From: Paracoccus aestuarii
GTDB taxonomy: Bacteria > Pseudomonadota > Alphaproteobacteria > Rhodobacterales > Rhodobacteraceae
Reading direction: 5' to 3'
Length of the DNA stretch: 64,000 nucleotides
Assembly (NCBI RefSeq): GCF_028553885.1
Contig: NZ_CP067169.1
Span: 310,001-374,000, forward strand
Every line of letters begins with the position of its first letter. The first letter of the stretch is position 1. The notes under the pieces were generated by a model that saw only the letters and a program-made list of their open reading frames with translations, did no database searches and had not been told where the DNA came from. Made by a program: the position numbers and the translations under genes. Of this stretch, positions 31,403 through 37,565 are shown piece by piece.

Positions 31403-32124
31403 GCGCTCTCGCCCCCGTCCAGGACGATGGCCTGGCCGTTCGCGCTGGCCGCCGCGGGGGAAGCCAGCCACAAAGCGGTCGCCGTGACCTCGGAGGGCGC
31501 GATCAGCCGCGCCTGCGGGTTCTTGCCCGCCAGCGCGGCCACCGCCGCATCATGGTCGCGGCCGGTCTTGTCCATGATGTTGGCGATGCTGCGCCGCGTC
31601 ATCTCGGTATCCAGATAGCCGGGGCAGATCGCGTTGACGGTGATGTCCTTCTTCGCGACCTCCAGCGCCAGCGACCGCACGAGGCCCATCACCCCATGCT
31701 TGCTGGCCGCATAGGGCGCCGCATAGGCCGCCCCGCGCACCCCGGTGATCGAGCAGATGGCGATCATTCGCCCCCCCGGTCCCATCTGCGCCAGCGCCTG
31801 GCGGAAGGTCAGGAACACCCCGGTCAGGTTCACCGCGATGATGCGGTGCCAATGCTCCATCGTGACCTTGCCGAAGGGCGCGGCCTCGGCGATGCCCGCA
31901 TTGGCGATGACGACCTGACAGGGACCGGCCGCGTCAAAGACCGCGCGGACCTGATCCTCGTCGCTGACATCGCCCGGCACGGCGCGGATCAGGCCCCCCG
32001 CCACCGCCCCCAGTTTCGCCGCATCGCGGCCGGTGATGACGACCTCATGGCCTTGGGCCGCAAAGGCGCGGGCCATGTCGGCGCCGGTGCCGCTGCCGCC
32101 GCCGGTGATCAGGATGCGGGTCAT
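31399..32124 (-). CDS. SDR family NAD(P)-dependent oxidoreductase
   Basis: Classical short-chain dehydrogenase, 241 residues. Cofactor motif [22 protein letters not shown] at the N-terminus, [15 protein letters not shown], catalytic Ser in ICSITGVRG, YxxxK as PYAASKHG near residue 153, and [20 protein letters not shown] after it. Likely oxidises a 3-hydroxyacyl-CoA in the lower part of the 2-aminobenzoyl-CoA route. Acetoacetyl-CoA reductase-like activity is another possibility. Coupled by four-base overlaps to the regulator gene and to the monooxygenase gene. Confidence 0.92.
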
Positions 32125-34400
32125 GCGCGGATCTCCTCGGCCTGTTTCGCGGCCAGGCGGCGCGCCTGATCGCGGCTCGCGTGATAGGGCAGGGGCCAGT
32201 CCGCCGGATCGCCCAGGGCCGTCGCCGCATGCAGCGTCCAATAGGGGTCGGCCAGATGCGGCCGCCCGATGGCCACCAGATCGGCGCGCCCCGCCATCAG
32301 GATGCCGTTGGCCTGATCGGCATCGGTGATGTTGCCCACCGCCATCGTTGCCAGCCCCGCCTGGTTGCGGATGCGGTCCGAGAACGGCGTCTGGAACATC
32401 CGCCCATAGACGGGCCGCGCCTCGGGCGTCGTCTGACCGGCCGAAACGTCGATGATATCCGCCCCCGCCGCATGGAAGGCCCGCGCGATGGCGACCGATT
32501 CGTCCGGCGTCACGCCATCCTCGGTCCAGTCCGTGGCCGAGATGCGCACCGACATGGGCCTGTCCTGGGGCCAGACGGCGCGCATGGCGGCGAAGACCTC
32601 CAGCGGCCAGCGCAGGCGGTTCTCCAGGCTGCCGCCATAGTCATCCGTGCGCCGGTTCGACACCGGCGACAGGAAGCCCGACAGCAGATAGCCATGCGCC
32701 GCATGCAGCTCGATCATGTCAAAGCCCGCCGCATCGGCCATGCGGGTCGCGGCCACGAACTGTTCGGTCACCGCCTCCATGTCGGCGCGGGTCATCTCCT
32801 GCGGGACGGCATTGCCCTCGGACCAGGGCAGGGCGGAGGCCGCCATGATCGGCCAGTTGCCGTCCTCAAGGGGCTGGTCCATCCCCTCCCACCCGATGCG
32901 GGTGGAGCCCTTGCGGCCGGAATGGCCGATCTGACAGCAGATCCTGGCATCCGTCTCGGCATGGACGAAATCGGTGATCCGCCGCCAGGCCGCCTGATGC
33001 TCGGGCGCGTAGAGGCCAGGACAGCCCGGCGTGATGCGGCCTTCGGGGCTGACGCAGGTCATCTCGGTGAAGACCAGGCCCGCGCCGCCCTTGGCGCGTT
33101 CGCCGTAATGGACCAGGTGCCAGTCGGTCGGGCAGCCTTCGCGCGCCTTGTACTGCGCCATGGGCGAGACCACGATGCGGTTCTTCAGCGCCATGTCGCG
33201 CAGGCGGAAGGGCGCGAAGATCGGCGCGCGGCCCGGCTGGCCGCCGGCCTGCCGTTGGAACCAGTCCTCGGCCTCGCGCACCCAATCCGGGTCGCGCAGG
33301 CGCAGGTTTTCGTGGCCGATGCGCTGGCTGCGGGTCAGCAGGGAATAGGTGAACTGGATCGGGTCCAGGTCCAGGTAACGCTCGACCTCCTCGAACCATT
33401 CCAGGCTGTTGCGGGCCGCCGATTGCAGGCGCAGCACCTCGACGCGCCGTTCCTCCTGATAGCGTTCGAAGGCGCGGGGCAGGTCGGGTTCGGAGTGCAG
33501 ATAGTCGGCCAGCGCGATGGCGCTGTCGAGCGCCAGCCGCGTGCCCGACCCGATCGAGAAATGCCCCGTGGCCGCCGCATCGCCCATCAGCACGACGTTC
33601 TCATGATACCAGCGGTCGCAGATGACGCGGGGAAAGTTCATCCAGACGGCCGAGCCGCGCAGGTGGGCGGCGTTCGACATCAGCTCGTGCCCGCCCAGAT
33701 GGTCCTTGAAGACGTTGCGGCAGGTCTCGACGATCTGCTCCTTGGACATGCCTTCGAAGCCCATCGCGTCCCAGGTGTCTTGGGCGCATTCCACGATGAA
33801 GGTCGCAGTGTCGGCATCGTAGGAATAGACATGCGCCCAGAGCCAGCCCTGCGGCGTCTTTTCGAAGATGAAGGTGAAGGCGTCGTCGAATTTCTGCTTG
33901 GTGCCCAGCCAGACGAACTTGCAGCGGCGCATGTCGATGTCGGGGCGGAACACGTCCGCATACTCAGTGCGGACGCGGCTGTTCAGCCCGTCGCAGGCCA
34001 CGACCAGATCATAGTCGCGGCGATAGGTTTCGGCGGTCTGGAACTCGGTCTGGAATTGCAGGTCCACGCCCAGTTCGCGCGCGCGCTCCTGCAGCAGGAT
34101 CAGCAGCTGCCGCCGCCCGATCCCGGCGAAGCCGTGCCCGCCCGAGACCTGGCGGTGCCCGTCGCGGACCACCGCGATGTCGTCCCAATAGATGAAGTGG
34201 TCGCGGATCGCCTGCGCCGAGGGCGGGTCGTTGCGTTCCAGCCGCAACAGGGCGTCGTCGGACAGCACCACGCCCCATCCGAAGGTGTCGCCCGCATTGT
34301 TGCGCTCCAGCACTGTCACGTCATGCGACGGATCGCGCAGCTTCATCGAGATCGCGAAATAGAGGCCCGCAGGCCCGCCGCCCAGACAGAGAATCTTCAT
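32121..34400 (-). CDS. abmA: 2-aminobenzoyl-CoA monooxygenase/reductase (salicylyl-CoA 5-hydroxylase/OYE fusion)
   Basis: Two-part flavoprotein of 759 residues. The N-terminal part (1 to about 385) is a FAD aromatic hydroxylase: [74 protein letters not shown]. The C-terminal part (about 395-759) is an Old Yellow Enzyme-type reductase: [55 protein letters not shown] and [15 protein letters not shown]. This fusion is the one described for 2-aminobenzoyl-CoA monooxygenase/reductase, which hydroxylates and then reduces the ring. First gene of the operon. Salicylyl-CoA 5-hydroxylase is the main alternative, less likely given the linked tryptophan dioxygenase. Confidence 0.9.
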
Positions 34401-34442: not shown

Positions 34443-35711
34443 TCATTTCAAGCTTGAAACTTCTCTGGCGATGGAGGCTGCGATCATCGCGGGCACTTCG
34501 GGCGCGAGGCCCACCGGGTCCAGGCGCGGGCCGGTGAAGCCCGCCTGATCCAGCGCCTGCGGCAGGTCGTCGGTCACATGCTCGGCGCGCAGGGCGAAGA
34601 GCGGCAGGCTGATGGCGCGGTCGAGGCCGCGGGCGGCGTCGGCGATGAAGGGCTCCTGTTCGACGAAGCCTGCGACCACGTGGGCGAAATGCGGCGCGAT
34701 GCGGGCGGCCAGCGCCATGGTGATGTCATGGCTGGCCTGCCCGCGCTGCGAGCCGTGCGCGGACAGCAGCAGCGTCGTGTCGGACAGCGCCCAGCCCTGG
34801 GCATCGGCCGCCTGTCGCGCCTTTTCGACGACCAGCGCGTCGAGGCCGGGATCGGTGCCGAAGGGGCGCATGATATGCGCGCCGGGCGCGCCGGCCTGGG
34901 CCAGGCGGCGGGGCAGCTCGATCCCGGTGAACCAGCCCTCGGCCATGAACATCGGATAGATGATACAGTCGCTGCGGCAGGTCCGGGGCAGGGCGTCGGG
35001 ATCGGCAAGCGTCGCGCCCAGGACCTCGACGCCCGGGGCGTGGGCCGCGACCTGGGCGGCCAGGGCCTCGATGGCGGCCTGCTGGGGGGCGGGGTCGCCA
35101 GGCTGGCCATGCGAGACGATGACGGCGCGCGACAGGGTGCGGGGCTGGTCGGCCTCGTGGAAATACTGCGCCAAGGCGTCGGGCATGGGGAATTCGGCCA
35201 GGGCGCGGGCGCGGGCCTCGGCCGACATCTTGCGGGCGGTCTTCTCGATGATGCGGGGGATCTTGTGGTCGGGCTGTTCGGCCATGAAATCGCCCAGATA
35301 CCAGCGGATGAAGGTGAAGCAGATCACATCCTCCAGCGCCTGCACCTGGGGGTCGCGCTTGATGCCCTGTTTCGTCAGCATCTTTCGGGCGCGGTCGATG
35401 TCATCGTCGTCATAGCCCGCATCGGCCATGATGCCCGCGATGCGGTCCGCGTGACGGCGGCCCTGTTCCTGGCGCCAGGCCAAATAGCCGGGGCGGTTCA
35501 TCGGATAGGCGGCCCGCGGCAGCAGCCAGCGTTCGACATGCTGGCCGCGGCAGGCGATGCGCAGAACGTCGTCGGCGTCGGGGAACAGTCGCTGCTGTTC
35601 TGCCGTCATCCGCTGGCCGTAGAGGAGGTTGGCGGGCTGGCCGTCCTGGAGGTTGGGGTCCTGGGCGTTGGCGGCGTCGATGGCGGTGAAGGCGTGGTCG
35701 AGGCGGGTCAT
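34443..35711 (-). CDS. DUF4202 - CbiX-like chelatase fusion protein
   Basis: Two-domain protein of 422 residues, reading continuously. Residues 1 to about 195 match DUF4202: LDHAFTAIDAANAQDPN, HVERWLLPRAAYPMNRPGYLAWRQEQGRRHADR, DVICFTFIRWYLGDF and KIPRIIEKTARKMS. Residues from about 215 match CbiX/SirB-type sirohydrochlorin chelatases: AVIVSHGQPGDPAPQQAAIEALAAQV, IIYPMFMAEGWFTG, and LLLSAHGSQRGQASHD with metal-binding His residues. A tetrapyrrole-linked role, for example siroheme iron insertion, is inferred; DUF4202 has no known activity. The start ATG 35711 gives the expected DUF4202 N-terminus. Its end abuts the abm operon but it is probably transcribed from its own promoter. Confidence 0.8.
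   Translation of the reverse strand: MTRLDHAFTAIDAANAQDPNLQDGQPANLLYGQRMTAEQQRLFPDADDVLRIACRGQHVERWLLPRAAYPMNRPGYLAWRQEQGRRHADRIAGIMADAGYDDDDIDRARKMLTKQGIKRDPQVQALEDVICFTFIRWYLGDFMAEQPDHKIPRIIEKTARKMSAEARARALAEFPMPDALAQYFHEADQPRTLSRAVIVSHGQPGDPAPQQAAIEALAAQVAAHAPGVEVLGATLADPDALPRTCRSDCIIYPMFMAEGWFTGIELPRRLAQAGAPGAHIMRPFGTDPGLDALVVEKARQAADAQGWALSDTTLLLSAHGSQRGQASHDITMALAARIAPHFAHVVAGFVEQEPFIADAARGLDRAISLPLFALRAEHVTDDLPQALDQAGFTGPRLDPVGLAPEVPAMIAASIAREVSSLK
34446..34459. promoter_or_regulatory. Perfect palindrome TTTCAAGCTTGAAA, candidate MarR operator
   Basis: A 14-base perfect palindrome sits 46 bases before the abmA start and overlaps the last codons (Val-Ser-Ser-Leu-Lys) of the DUF4202-CbiX gene. 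It is a good candidate for the binding site of the MarR protein encoded in the operon. Confidence 0.5.
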
Positions 35712-35832: not shown

Positions 35833-36876
35833 TCAGGGCAGGGCGAAGAGGTCGGGGATGTCCTGGTGGTCGTCGAGCATGATCCGGGCGGCCAGATCGG
35901 CGATCAGCGGGGCCATGCCGAAGCCGATCTTGAAGCCGCCATTGGCGATCAGGTGGCCGGGGCGGCCGGGCCAGGGGGCCAGGATCGGCGCGCGCGATCG
36001 GGCGCGGGGGCGCAGGCCGGCCCAGATGTCGAGGACGGGCGCCGTGGCCAGGGCGGGGCAGAGGGTGATGGCGCGGGCCAGCAGGTCATCGGCCTGATGG
36101 TCGGGATCGGGATGGTCCCACGCGTTTTCGGATGTCGAGCCGATGGCCGTGGTGCCGTCCGCATGGGGGACGATGTGCAGCCCATCGGCGAAGATCTGCG
36201 GGCTGTCCGGCACGGCATGGGCGAGGAGCAGCGACTGGCCCTTGACGCCTTGGCCTATGCGGCGGTCGAGCGCGGTGTTCAGCGCCTCGAGCCCCGGGGT
36301 GCCGGTGGCCCAGAGGGTGGGCGCGTGGTCCTGCGGGGCGGGGGTGTCTTCGGTGATCGGGACGCCGGCCTGGCGCAGGGCCTGGGCCAGCGCGGCCAGG
36401 GCTGCGCGCGGGTTCAGCCGGGCGGTCAGCCCGTCATGCAGCCACAGCCCCGTCGGGCTGGGCGGGATCAGCGGGCCTTGGGGGTCGCGGGTCAGGGTCA
36501 TGCCCATCCCGGCGGGCCAGTGCCGGGCCGCCGCCGCGATGCGTTCGGGCAGATGTTCGGCCATGCGCGCGTCGGGGACGGGCTGGAGGCGCCCGGTGCG
36601 GGCATAGCCGGTGGGCAGGCCGGATGCGGCCTCGACCCCGGGCCAGAAATCGGGCGCGGCCAGCAGGCTGGTCAGTTGCAGCGCCTTCTTGGGGTTCCAC
36701 GGGTCGGGCGCATGCGGGGCGAGCGCGCCGACATGGCCGCCCGAGGAGCCTGCGCCGATGGTCCGCGCCTCGAAGACCCGCACCGCCGCGCCGCGCCGCG
36801 TCAGCGCCCAGGCCGCGGCCAGCCCGAAGACCCCCGCCCCCGCCACATGGATCACCCTTGCCAAATCGCAGCCCAC
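35833..36876 (-). CDS. FAD-dependent oxidoreductase, MnmC C-terminal/DAO type
   Basis: D-amino-acid-oxidase-fold FAD enzyme, 347 residues: VIHVAGAGVFGLAAAWALTRRGAAVRVFEA at the N-terminus, GAGSSGGHVGALAPHAPDPWNPKKALQL, and the C-terminal LRPRARSRAPILAPWPGRPGHLIANGGFKIGFGMAPLIADLAARI. Its divergent neighbour is mnmD, so it may be the oxidase half of MnmC, which removes the carboxymethyl group from the tRNA wobble uridine. It could also be a generic amino-acid oxidase. The start is uncertain: ATG 36876 leaves only 17 bases to the mnmD start, and a GTG seven codons in (VIHVAGAG) is an alternative. Confidence 0.8.
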   Translation of the reverse strand: MGCDLARVIHVAGAGVFGLAAAWALTRRGAAVRVFEARTIGAGSSGGHVGALAPHAPDPWNPKKALQLTSLLAAPDFWPGVEAASGLPTGYARTGRLQPVPDARMAEHLPERIAAAARHWPAGMGMTLTRDPQGPLIPPSPTGLWLHDGLTARLNPRAALAALAQALRQAGVPITEDTPAPQDHAPTLWATGTPGLEALNTALDRRIGQGVKGQSLLLAHAVPDSPQIFADGLHIVPHADGTTAIGSTSENAWDHPDPDHQADDLLARAITLCPALATAPVLDIWAGLRPRARSRAPILAPWPGRPGHLIANGGFKIGFGMAPLIADLAARIMLDDHQDIPDLFALP

Positions 36877-36893: not shown

Positions 36894-37565
36894 ATGTCCG
36901 ACCTAGCCCATCCCGCCCCGGAAGACGAGCCTGCGCTGGATTGGCGCGAGGGCGGCGTGCCGGTCTCGCGCGACTTCGACGACCCCTATTTCAGCCTGGC
37001 CGGCGGGCTGGAGGAGACGCGCCATGTCTTTCTGGCCGGCAATGACCTGCCCGCGCGGCTGGTGCCCGGGTTTCACGTGGCCGAGCTGGGCTTCGGCACC
37101 GGGCTGAACGCGCTGGCCTTGGCGCAGGTGGCGCAGGTCCCGGTGCGCATGACCAGCTTCGAGGCCTTTCCGATGACCGTGCCGCAGCTGGCCCGGGCCC
37201 ATGCGGCCTTTCCGGCGCTGGCCGATCTGTCGGCGCAGCTGCGGGCGGGCTGGGGGCGGGGGGTGATCACCTTGGGCCGGGTCAGCCTGACGCTGGTCCT
37301 GGGGGATGTGCGCGCGACACTGCCCGCGTGGCGGGACCGGGCGGATGCCTGGTTCCTGGACGGGTTCTCGCCCGCCAAGAACCCGCAGATGTGGGGCGCG
37401 GATGTCATGGCGCAGGTCGGTTCCCATACCGCGCCGGGCGGCAGTTTCGCCACCTATACCGCCGCGGGCCATGTGCGCCGGGCGCTGCAGGATGCGGGCT
37501 TCGCCGTCGCGCGCGCCCCGGGCTTCGGCCGCAAGCGCCACATGAGCCGCGGCCGCCTGGCCTGA
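36894..37565 (+). CDS. mnmD: tRNA (5-methylaminomethyl-2-thiouridine) methyltransferase MnmD
   Basis: SAM-dependent methyltransferase that completes mnm5s2U at the wobble base of some tRNAs. 223 residues; the methyltransferase part of MnmC alone. Motifs: HVAELGFGTGLNALALAQ (SAM binding, near 60) and WFLDGFSPAKNPQMWGADVMAQV, the strong family signature, near 155, then TYTAAGHVRRALQDAGFAVARAPGFGRKRHM. In gamma-proteobacteria this domain is fused to a FAD oxidase; here the oxidase is a separate divergent gene. Confidence 0.95.
   Translation: MSDLAHPAPEDEPALDWREGGVPVSRDFDDPYFSLAGGLEETRHVFLAGNDLPARLVPGFHVAELGFGTGLNALALAQVAQVPVRMTSFEAFPMTVPQLARAHAAFPALADLSAQLRAGWGRGVITLGRVSLTLVLGDVRATLPAWRDRADAWFLDGFSPAKNPQMWGADVMAQVGSHTAPGGSFATYTAAGHVRRALQDAGFAVARAPGFGRKRHMSRGRLA

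Follow-up and report, generated by a model that had tools for sequence, protein, structure and literature searches.

The window (the whole stretch of DNA that was analysed, 64,000 nucleotides from Paracoccus aestuarii) was found to contain an open reading frame on the minus strand in which a DUF4202 domain and a class II chelatase are joined in a single predicted protein of 422 amino acids (see Table 1 for details). One frame joining both domains had been described in an initial annotation made from the sequence alone; Pfam and phmmer agree with that description, and the coordinates were retained, while the strand, which had been missing, was corrected to minus (the plus-strand translation of the same interval contains a stop). 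A GGAG motif is located at positions 35721-35718, six bases upstream of the ATG. The DUF4202 part spans residue 1 to about residue 190 and was recognised by Pfam with an E-value of 1.5e-63 and 214.4 bits, passing the gathering cut-off of 35.1, and the CbiX domain was recognised with an E-value of 1.2e-10. The AlphaFold model of the whole fusion had a pLDDT of 90.1 and a pTM of 0.77. The fusion is present in one copy in the host genome (3.68 Mb), and no match to the protein was found among 50,697 phage records. DDP1 and GRIP1, which were returned by phmmer against the PDB at E-values of 0.005 and above, look like chance matches and were rejected as relatives.

Table 1. Features of the fusion gene in the window
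Feature	Position in window	Strand	Details
Fusion gene duf4202-cbiX	34443..35711	-	422 aa; ATG start at 35711, stop at 34443
DUF4202 domain (PF13875), residues 6-181	35169..35696	-	Pfam; predicted HD fold; canonical HD metal ligands apparently mostly lost, by alignment
Class II chelatase domain, Paracoccus-type CbiX, residues 195-418	34458..35129	-	phmmer, Foldseek
His319, equivalent to essential His127 of Pp-CbiX	34755..34757	-	Mapped by alignment; mutant data in PMC4063343
His378, equivalent to essential His187 of Pp-CbiX	34578..34580	-	Mapped by alignment; mutant data in PMC4063343
Domain junction, residues 187-199, ADQPRTLSRAVIV	35115..35153	-	TGATG at this point in most of the unfused relatives read

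Other genes were also noted on both sides of the fusion gene. An FAD oxidoreductase (DAO) gene at 35836-36876 (minus strand) and a divergent Methyltransf_30 gene at 36903-37562 (plus strand) are presumably the two halves of MnmC, kept separate. A gene at 32124-34400 (minus strand) carries FAD_binding_3 and Oxidored_FMN on one chain; SDR, MarR and enoyl-CoA hydratase genes come next, and the set looks like an aromatic pathway of the salicylyl-CoA 5-hydroxylase type.

The chelatase half of the protein was aligned by phmmer (E 1.5e-74) to PDB entry 4CCS, the sirohydrochlorin ferrochelatase CbiX of Paracoccus pantotrophus (Pp-CbiX; Bali et al. 2014, PMC4063343). Foldseek comparison of the whole-protein model with 4CCS gave an E-value of 2.4e-18, a TM-score (target) of 0.90 and 61% identity over 223 columns, and the C-terminal part therefore has the chelatase fold, the lack of which had been named as grounds for rejecting the original reading; counting the two alignment rows gave 124 identical positions out of 204 aligned. 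The description "CbiX/SirB chelatase-like" thus stands as far as the chelatase is concerned, and can be stated more exactly as a characterised enzyme type, that of Pp-CbiX. Pp-CbiX together with cobA is reported to rescue an E. coli cysG strain, to prefer iron and to depend on the essential residues His127 and His187, while deletion of CbiX in P. denitrificans is reported to abolish anaerobic growth on nitrate and to leave aerobic cells requiring cysteine and ammonium (PMC4063343). The equivalents of both histidines, His319 and His378, are present in all 20 fused genes identified in the genus. On the basis of homology and fold, we regard the identification of the C-terminal half as a terminal sirohydrochlorin ferrochelatase, a known enzyme, as settled, and its predicted role with iron and siroheme as well founded by homology.

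A function in siroheme rather than cobalt metabolism, which had been favoured in the initial annotation, is indicated by the closest relative of known structure, which has been proven to be a sirohydrochlorin ferrochelatase, and the mutual replacement of CbiX and CysG-N across the family (see below) also speaks for it. A cobalt chelatase for B12 was judged unlikely, as that relative prefers iron and plasmid genes annotated as cobN and cobG (precorrin-3B synthase) have matches in the window's right-hand part. There was no match over the cut-off for NirJ in the host genome, which makes heme d1 an unlikely end product of the pathway; siroheme in the host most likely serves reductases instead. CysG-N (TIGR01470) gave no match in the host genome, and the NAD(P)-binding domain of precorrin-2 dehydrogenase (PF13241/TIGR01470) gave none in the fusion protein.

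The distribution of the two domains was determined in 125 genomes of the host genus and 246 genomes of the host family. The DUF4202/CbiX query matched 122 of the 125 genus genomes; CysG-N is present in two of the three without a match, the remaining one being 84% complete. CysG-N over the cut-off was missing in 121 of the 125, while NirJ was found over the cut-off in 40 of the 125, none of them among the 20 with the fusion. For this genus, a role of DUF4202 confined to heme d1 was therefore rejected. A single frame over both domains was identified in 20 of the 125 genomes, with no stops in any of the 20, and the fused rows formed one group in a 36-row tree (support 90/91, 89% of bootstrap trees). 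A sequencing join or chimera, the other ground on which the fusion might have been dismissed, was thus ruled out and the fusion is genuine. In one of the fused-gene genomes (G490, contig C20, 36281-36697) there is a CysG-N-like stretch broken by a TAA codon, perhaps a decaying relic. The junction was also read in 12 unfused genomes, 11 of the genus and one of another genus of the family (best-match loci, not a random draw), and duf4202 lay directly upstream of cbiX in all 12; the sequence TGATG, in which the duf4202 stop codon overlaps the cbiX ATG, was observed in nine, and a gap of 13 to about 66 bases in three. In most genera of the family DUF4202 and CbiX are not adjacent.

The search for the domain pair which had been suggested at the outset returned, beyond the 20 fusions of the genus, one more in a MAG of Hyphomicrobium sp. 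(L234). This protein of 488 amino acids has DUF4202 over residues 50-230 and CbiX in two stretches; with a chelatase identity of only about 35%, it probably arose independently. No literature naming DUF4202 or PF13875 was found under the names searched, and neither the fusion nor a link of DUF4202 to siroheme was found under those names. The terms "DUF" and "fused" are absent from the main text of PMC4063343.

Two alignments of the DUF4202 domain were used, A3 (the window domain and 66 rows from 80 named loci) and A4 (32). The model built from the 66-row alignment had a pLDDT of 95.4 and a pTM of 0.91, and the top seven rows returned for it by VIA-align were HD-type hydrolases (2pq7, Z 12.3, rmsd 3.8 over 152 residues; YpgQ, Z 10.9; MESH1, Z 9.4), on a scale where helical models can reach a Z of 13 through a common arrangement. 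For this reason the PF01966 match of a distant homologue, L088, which scores both as DUF4202 (5.6e-17) and as an HD domain (PF01966, 2.6e-07), also counts for the HD fold. E-values from Foldseek were weak, the top row being MESH1 with PAPS bound (E 0.12), and a PDB sequence search using the DUF4202 alignment gave two weak rows, 8cpn (E 0.18) and DatZ (E 1.1). The modelled domain has the HD fold as far as these comparisons predict it. In the sequence alignment to L088, the position of the first HD histidine is not conserved in DUF4202 (G/A), the position of the HD pair reads QH (Q57-H58) in DUF4202 proper and the last HD aspartate is kept as D128; the H...HD...D metal-binding set accordingly aligns as mostly lost. 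The residues invariant in all 67 rows are D12, N15, Y31, M35, Q57, H58, R61, W62, R66, G75, Y76, W79, R80, H87, K114, Q124, E127, D128, F134, F142, K150, T158, K161, M162 and A170, many of which are basic or polar (Y31, Q57, H58, R61, R66, R80, H87, K114, Q124, E127, D128 and K161).

With such a fold, DUF4202 could actively hydrolyse a small phosphorylated metabolite at a remodelled active site, its place near siroheme genes being due to operon history. The HD hydrolases among the best VIA-align rows fit this explanation, as do the weak Foldseek match to MESH1 with PAPS bound and the ATP sulfurylase/APS kinase gene found upstream of DUF4202 in three Acidobacteria loci (see below), but only the last aspartate of the metal-binding set is kept in the alignment to L088, and we consider an active hydrolase to be improbable.

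Several unusual forms of the domain were also observed. At L088 (344-2222), the protein scoring as both HD and DUF4202 follows an inositol-phosphate cytidylyltransferase/phosphotransferase-like gene, and the same gene pair is also clustered at L089 (9762-12270), both genomes being of the window's phylum; it is possible that these proteins are an evolutionary bridge between HD hydrolases and DUF4202. Six DUF4202 matches were found in one genome of the window's class (G124; L090, L091, two in L092, L093 and L094), five of which have an N-terminal extension of about 170-250 amino acids with no Pfam match, and extensions likewise without a Pfam match occur in G228 (L066, about 170 amino acids) and G044 (L074, about 430 amino acids).

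The neighbours of stand-alone DUF4202 were analysed in 80 named loci fetched by sequence, in 75 of which DUF4202 was called as a gene (the other five stand outside the counts); one representative of each neighbour type was named by NCBIfam or Pfam and the rest were identified by similarity to the representative. DUF4202 had a gene of siroheme, nitrite or sulfate metabolism as its immediate neighbour in 34 of the 75 loci, compared to 50 of 1019 for the other non-marker genes of the same loci and 5 of 547 for those at least five places away. In 27 loci, all Bacteroidota by record title, DUF4202 lies directly after nirD (nirB-nirD-DUF4202). A NarX/NarQ-like kinase (below family cut-offs) comes next in most of them, and NarL-like, NarK-like, nasA-like, SUMT or cysG-N genes are often nearby; being from one phylum, these 27 cases may represent one event. 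DUF4202 was found directly after an ATP sulfurylase/APS kinase gene in three loci from Acidobacteria MAGs (L177 by Pfam, L179 and L195 by similarity), adjoining cysG-N in two Bacteroidota loci (L168 and L224) and adjoining a convergent SUMT gene on the opposite strand in a further two. An Fnr-type regulator was located directly upstream on the same strand in 10 of the 75, all from gammaproteobacteria and mostly Cellvibrionaceae by name. At around 10 kb in loci within L157-L175 (Gilvimarinus, Marinimicrobium, Cellvibrio and other gammaproteobacteria), DUF4202 stands between an Fnr-type regulator and either a PF04247 SirB or an unnamed protein of 177 amino acids.

In genomes of the family, nor/nir operons that have cbiX as their last gene are bordered by a Crp/Fnr gene and DUF4202, in that order (annotated in L125, by similarity in others such as L117), and a Crp/Fnr-DUF4202 pair occupies the same position on a Roseibium aggregatum plasmid. 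Record listings place norF beside DUF4202 on Labrenzia plasmids, and a nitrate/nitrite cluster on a Hymenobacter plasmid includes a cobA gene that is convergent with DUF4202. In Ruegeria pomeroyi, DUF4202 shares 4 bases with the Crp/Fnr gene, with no nor, nir or siroheme gene annotated within 14 kb; the plasmid stretches of Pseudoalteromonas and Terrarubrum that were read around DUF4202 likewise have none annotated. In 21 DUF4202-positive proteobacterial genomes from outside the family, no NirB, NirD, SUMT, CysG-N, ATP sulfurylase or CbiX was found in the stretches examined, in a search which used crude gene calls, covered three of the six contigs of G124 and had no sulfite reductase among its markers. 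An Fnr-type gene adjoins DUF4202 in one of the 21, and unrelated neighbours outside the family include nadB/nadA, trpC and CTP synthase; at L082 (8108-11434, window's class) DUF4202 is flanked by nadB and nadA, with all three genes on one strand.

The proposal of the initial annotation that a chelatase partner would link DUF4202 to tetrapyrrole metal insertion held in part: nirBD, ATP sulfurylase, cysG-N and the nor/nir islands suggest a tie of the domain to the wider siroheme, nitrite and sulfate economy, and not to the insertion step itself. The lack of markers in the stretches examined of the 21 proteobacterial genomes outside the family, together with the varied neighbours, would suit an unrelated housekeeping role for DUF4202, with the cbiX and nirD adjacencies as separate accidents; this seems to us a poor explanation of the data, given that DUF4202 repeatedly has marker genes as neighbours, in Bacteroidota, Acidobacteria and two orders of alphaproteobacteria, that such genes adjoin so few of the distant genes in the same named loci, and that two fusions exist.

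Alternatively, DUF4202 could be a sensor or regulatory ligand binder with an HD fold in nitrate, nitrite or NO metabolism, its link to siroheme being indirect. The Crp/Fnr genes directly upstream in the alphaproteobacterial loci, in L076 and in the 10 named loci are consistent with regulation, as are the kinases adjoining DUF4202 in Bacteroidota operons and the association of DUF4202 with nirJ in the family (present in 29 of 37 NirJ-positive versus 22 of 209 NirJ-negative genomes). Both fusions, however, join DUF4202 to a chelatase and not to a regulator, and the host genus keeps the gene pair where nirJ was not found; a regulatory role is regarded as unlikely, although it and the unrelated hydrolase are real rivals to a siroheme function.

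Co-occurrence of DUF4202, CbiX and CysG-N was assessed across the 246 family genomes. DUF4202 was found with CbiX in 34, with both CbiX and CysG-N in 9, with CysG-N in 8 and alone in none; CbiX alone was found in 27, CbiX with CysG-N in 9, CysG-N alone in 143 and none of the three in 16. In these counts G668 (weak CbiX, 1.1e-4) is CbiX-positive, being left out of the within-CbiX test only, the below-cut-off CysG-N match of G788 is counted as absent (as is that of G004 in a further tabulation) and G783 is counted as DUF4202-positive on a contig fragment. CbiX and CysG-N tend toward mutual exclusion (CbiX without CysG-N in 61, CysG-N without CbiX in 151, both in 18 and neither in 16; odds ratio 0.03, all such tests counting related genomes as independent). 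CbiX was present in 43 of 51 DUF4202-positive compared to 36 of 195 DUF4202-negative family genomes, an association seen within NirJ-negative genomes and not within NirJ-positive ones (P 0.53). A CysG-N or CbiX/SirB-type candidate was identified in all 51 DUF4202-positive family genomes and in 72 of 72 tested overall, and DUF4202 gave no match in any of 14 control genomes, E. coli among them.

Outside the family, CysG-N or PF01903 was present in 21 of 21 DUF4202-positive genomes and 43 of 57 controls (P 0.016), a comparison in which the controls include small or incomplete genomes and some candidates are weak or may be something other than siroheme chelatases (low PF01903 scores in G281 and G313, a 135-residue frame in G277 and short CysG-N-like proteins in G113 and G124). 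Two of an original 23 positives, G287 and G318, had been dropped as distant HD homologues. Neither CysG-N alone (9 of 21 versus 30 of 57) nor PF01903 alone (13 of 21 versus 25 of 57) differed significantly, and NirJ was found in 6 of 21 compared to 5 of 57 (P 0.06).

These distributions also bear on the proposal that DUF4202 supplies, or helps, the oxidation of precorrin-2 to sirohydrochlorin without CysG, SirC or Met8, chiefly in anoxic conditions, which would prevent the autoxidation of precorrin-2. The general lack of CysG-N in the genus, and its presence in two of the three genomes without the DUF4202/CbiX match, are in its favour, and for P. denitrificans Bali et al. report the lack of any obvious precorrin-2 dehydrogenase candidate (PMC4063343). 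Among NirJ-positive (heme d1) genomes, DUF4202 was present in 20 of 22 without CysG-N versus 9 of 15 with it in the family (P 0.042) and in 3 of 3 versus 3 of 8 outside it (P 0.18; pooled P 0.003), in a test chosen after the data were seen; restricted to CbiX-positive NirJ-positive family genomes, P was 0.07. Against this proposal, DUF4202 and CysG-N are unrelated within CbiX-positive family genomes (P = 1), only 14 of the 39 CbiX-positive family genomes without nirJ and CysG-N have DUF4202, and DUF4202 stands directly beside cysG-N in the two Bacteroidota loci, all of which lowers the case for a general precorrin-2 dehydrogenase; in addition, the fusion lacks PF13241/TIGR01470 and its fold is of the HD type. 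Precorrin-2 oxidation is not favoured, and we rate it as very unlikely.

DUF4202 most likely belongs to the siroheme economy, perhaps as a tetrapyrrole carrier, because of the two fusions, the overlapping genes and the recurrent siroheme, nitrite and sulfate neighbours in the several lineages named above. Our tentative explanation of the gene product, to which we give somewhat less than an even chance, is a two-domain siroheme-pathway protein in which DUF4202 handles a tetrapyrrole or siroheme. The chelatase half would insert iron into sirohydrochlorin to give siroheme for nitrite and sulfite reductases, while DUF4202 would bind a many-carboxylate tetrapyrrole or siroheme itself, passing the tetrapyrrole to the chelatase or siroheme from the chelatase to a reductase. 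Binding of an eight-carboxylate tetrapyrrole would fit an HD domain that lacks the metal site and has numerous invariant basic residues. Elsewhere DUF4202 would act as a separate siroheme-handling factor beside nirBD, cbiX or sulfate-activation genes, and the fusion would have fixed a pair of genes which already overlapped. DUF4202 is not required for chelation itself, since Pp-CbiX works in E. coli (PMC4063343), and its absence from many CbiX genomes suggests that it helps the pathway without catalysing an obligatory step. The 27 family genomes with CbiX and with neither CysG-N nor DUF4202, in which the chelatase therefore occurs without it, and the 21 outside-family genomes without marker neighbours in the stretches examined count against a siroheme role. 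The broader claim that several phyla use DUF4202 as a dedicated siroheme-pathway component, as a carrier of siroheme or a precursor or in precorrin-2 oxidation without a CysG-type enzyme, is more doubtful.

Siroheme is the cofactor of nitrite- and sulfite-reducing enzymes, and the company kept by DUF4202 in several further groups of bacteria suggests that it too has a siroheme role. If so, this would be the first function for a widespread domain of unknown function, and two questions would become testable: the handling of siroheme between its synthesis and the reductases, and the conversion of precorrin-2 to sirohydrochlorin in Paracoccus-like bacteria without a recognisable dehydrogenase, a gap stated by Bali et al. 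(PMC4063343). The fusion offers one protein in which both could be assayed.

Compared to known systems, the C-terminal half is closest to Pp-CbiX in sequence, in fold and in the conservation of both essential histidines, while Pp-CbiX is a stand-alone chain of 231 residues and the fusion adds an N-terminal DUF4202. The second Foldseek match of the whole model was DR2241 of Deinococcus (2JH3, titled a multi-domain protein; E 4.2e-07, 26% identity). The DUF4202 half resembles the HD phosphohydrolases 2pq7, YpgQ and MESH1 in its predicted fold and differs from them in the H...HD...D set as aligned to L088. Like CysG and Met8p, the fusion would carry more than one siroheme-related function per chain, but its domains are unrelated to theirs, with neither the dehydrogenase NAD(P)-binding domain nor a methyltransferase domain.
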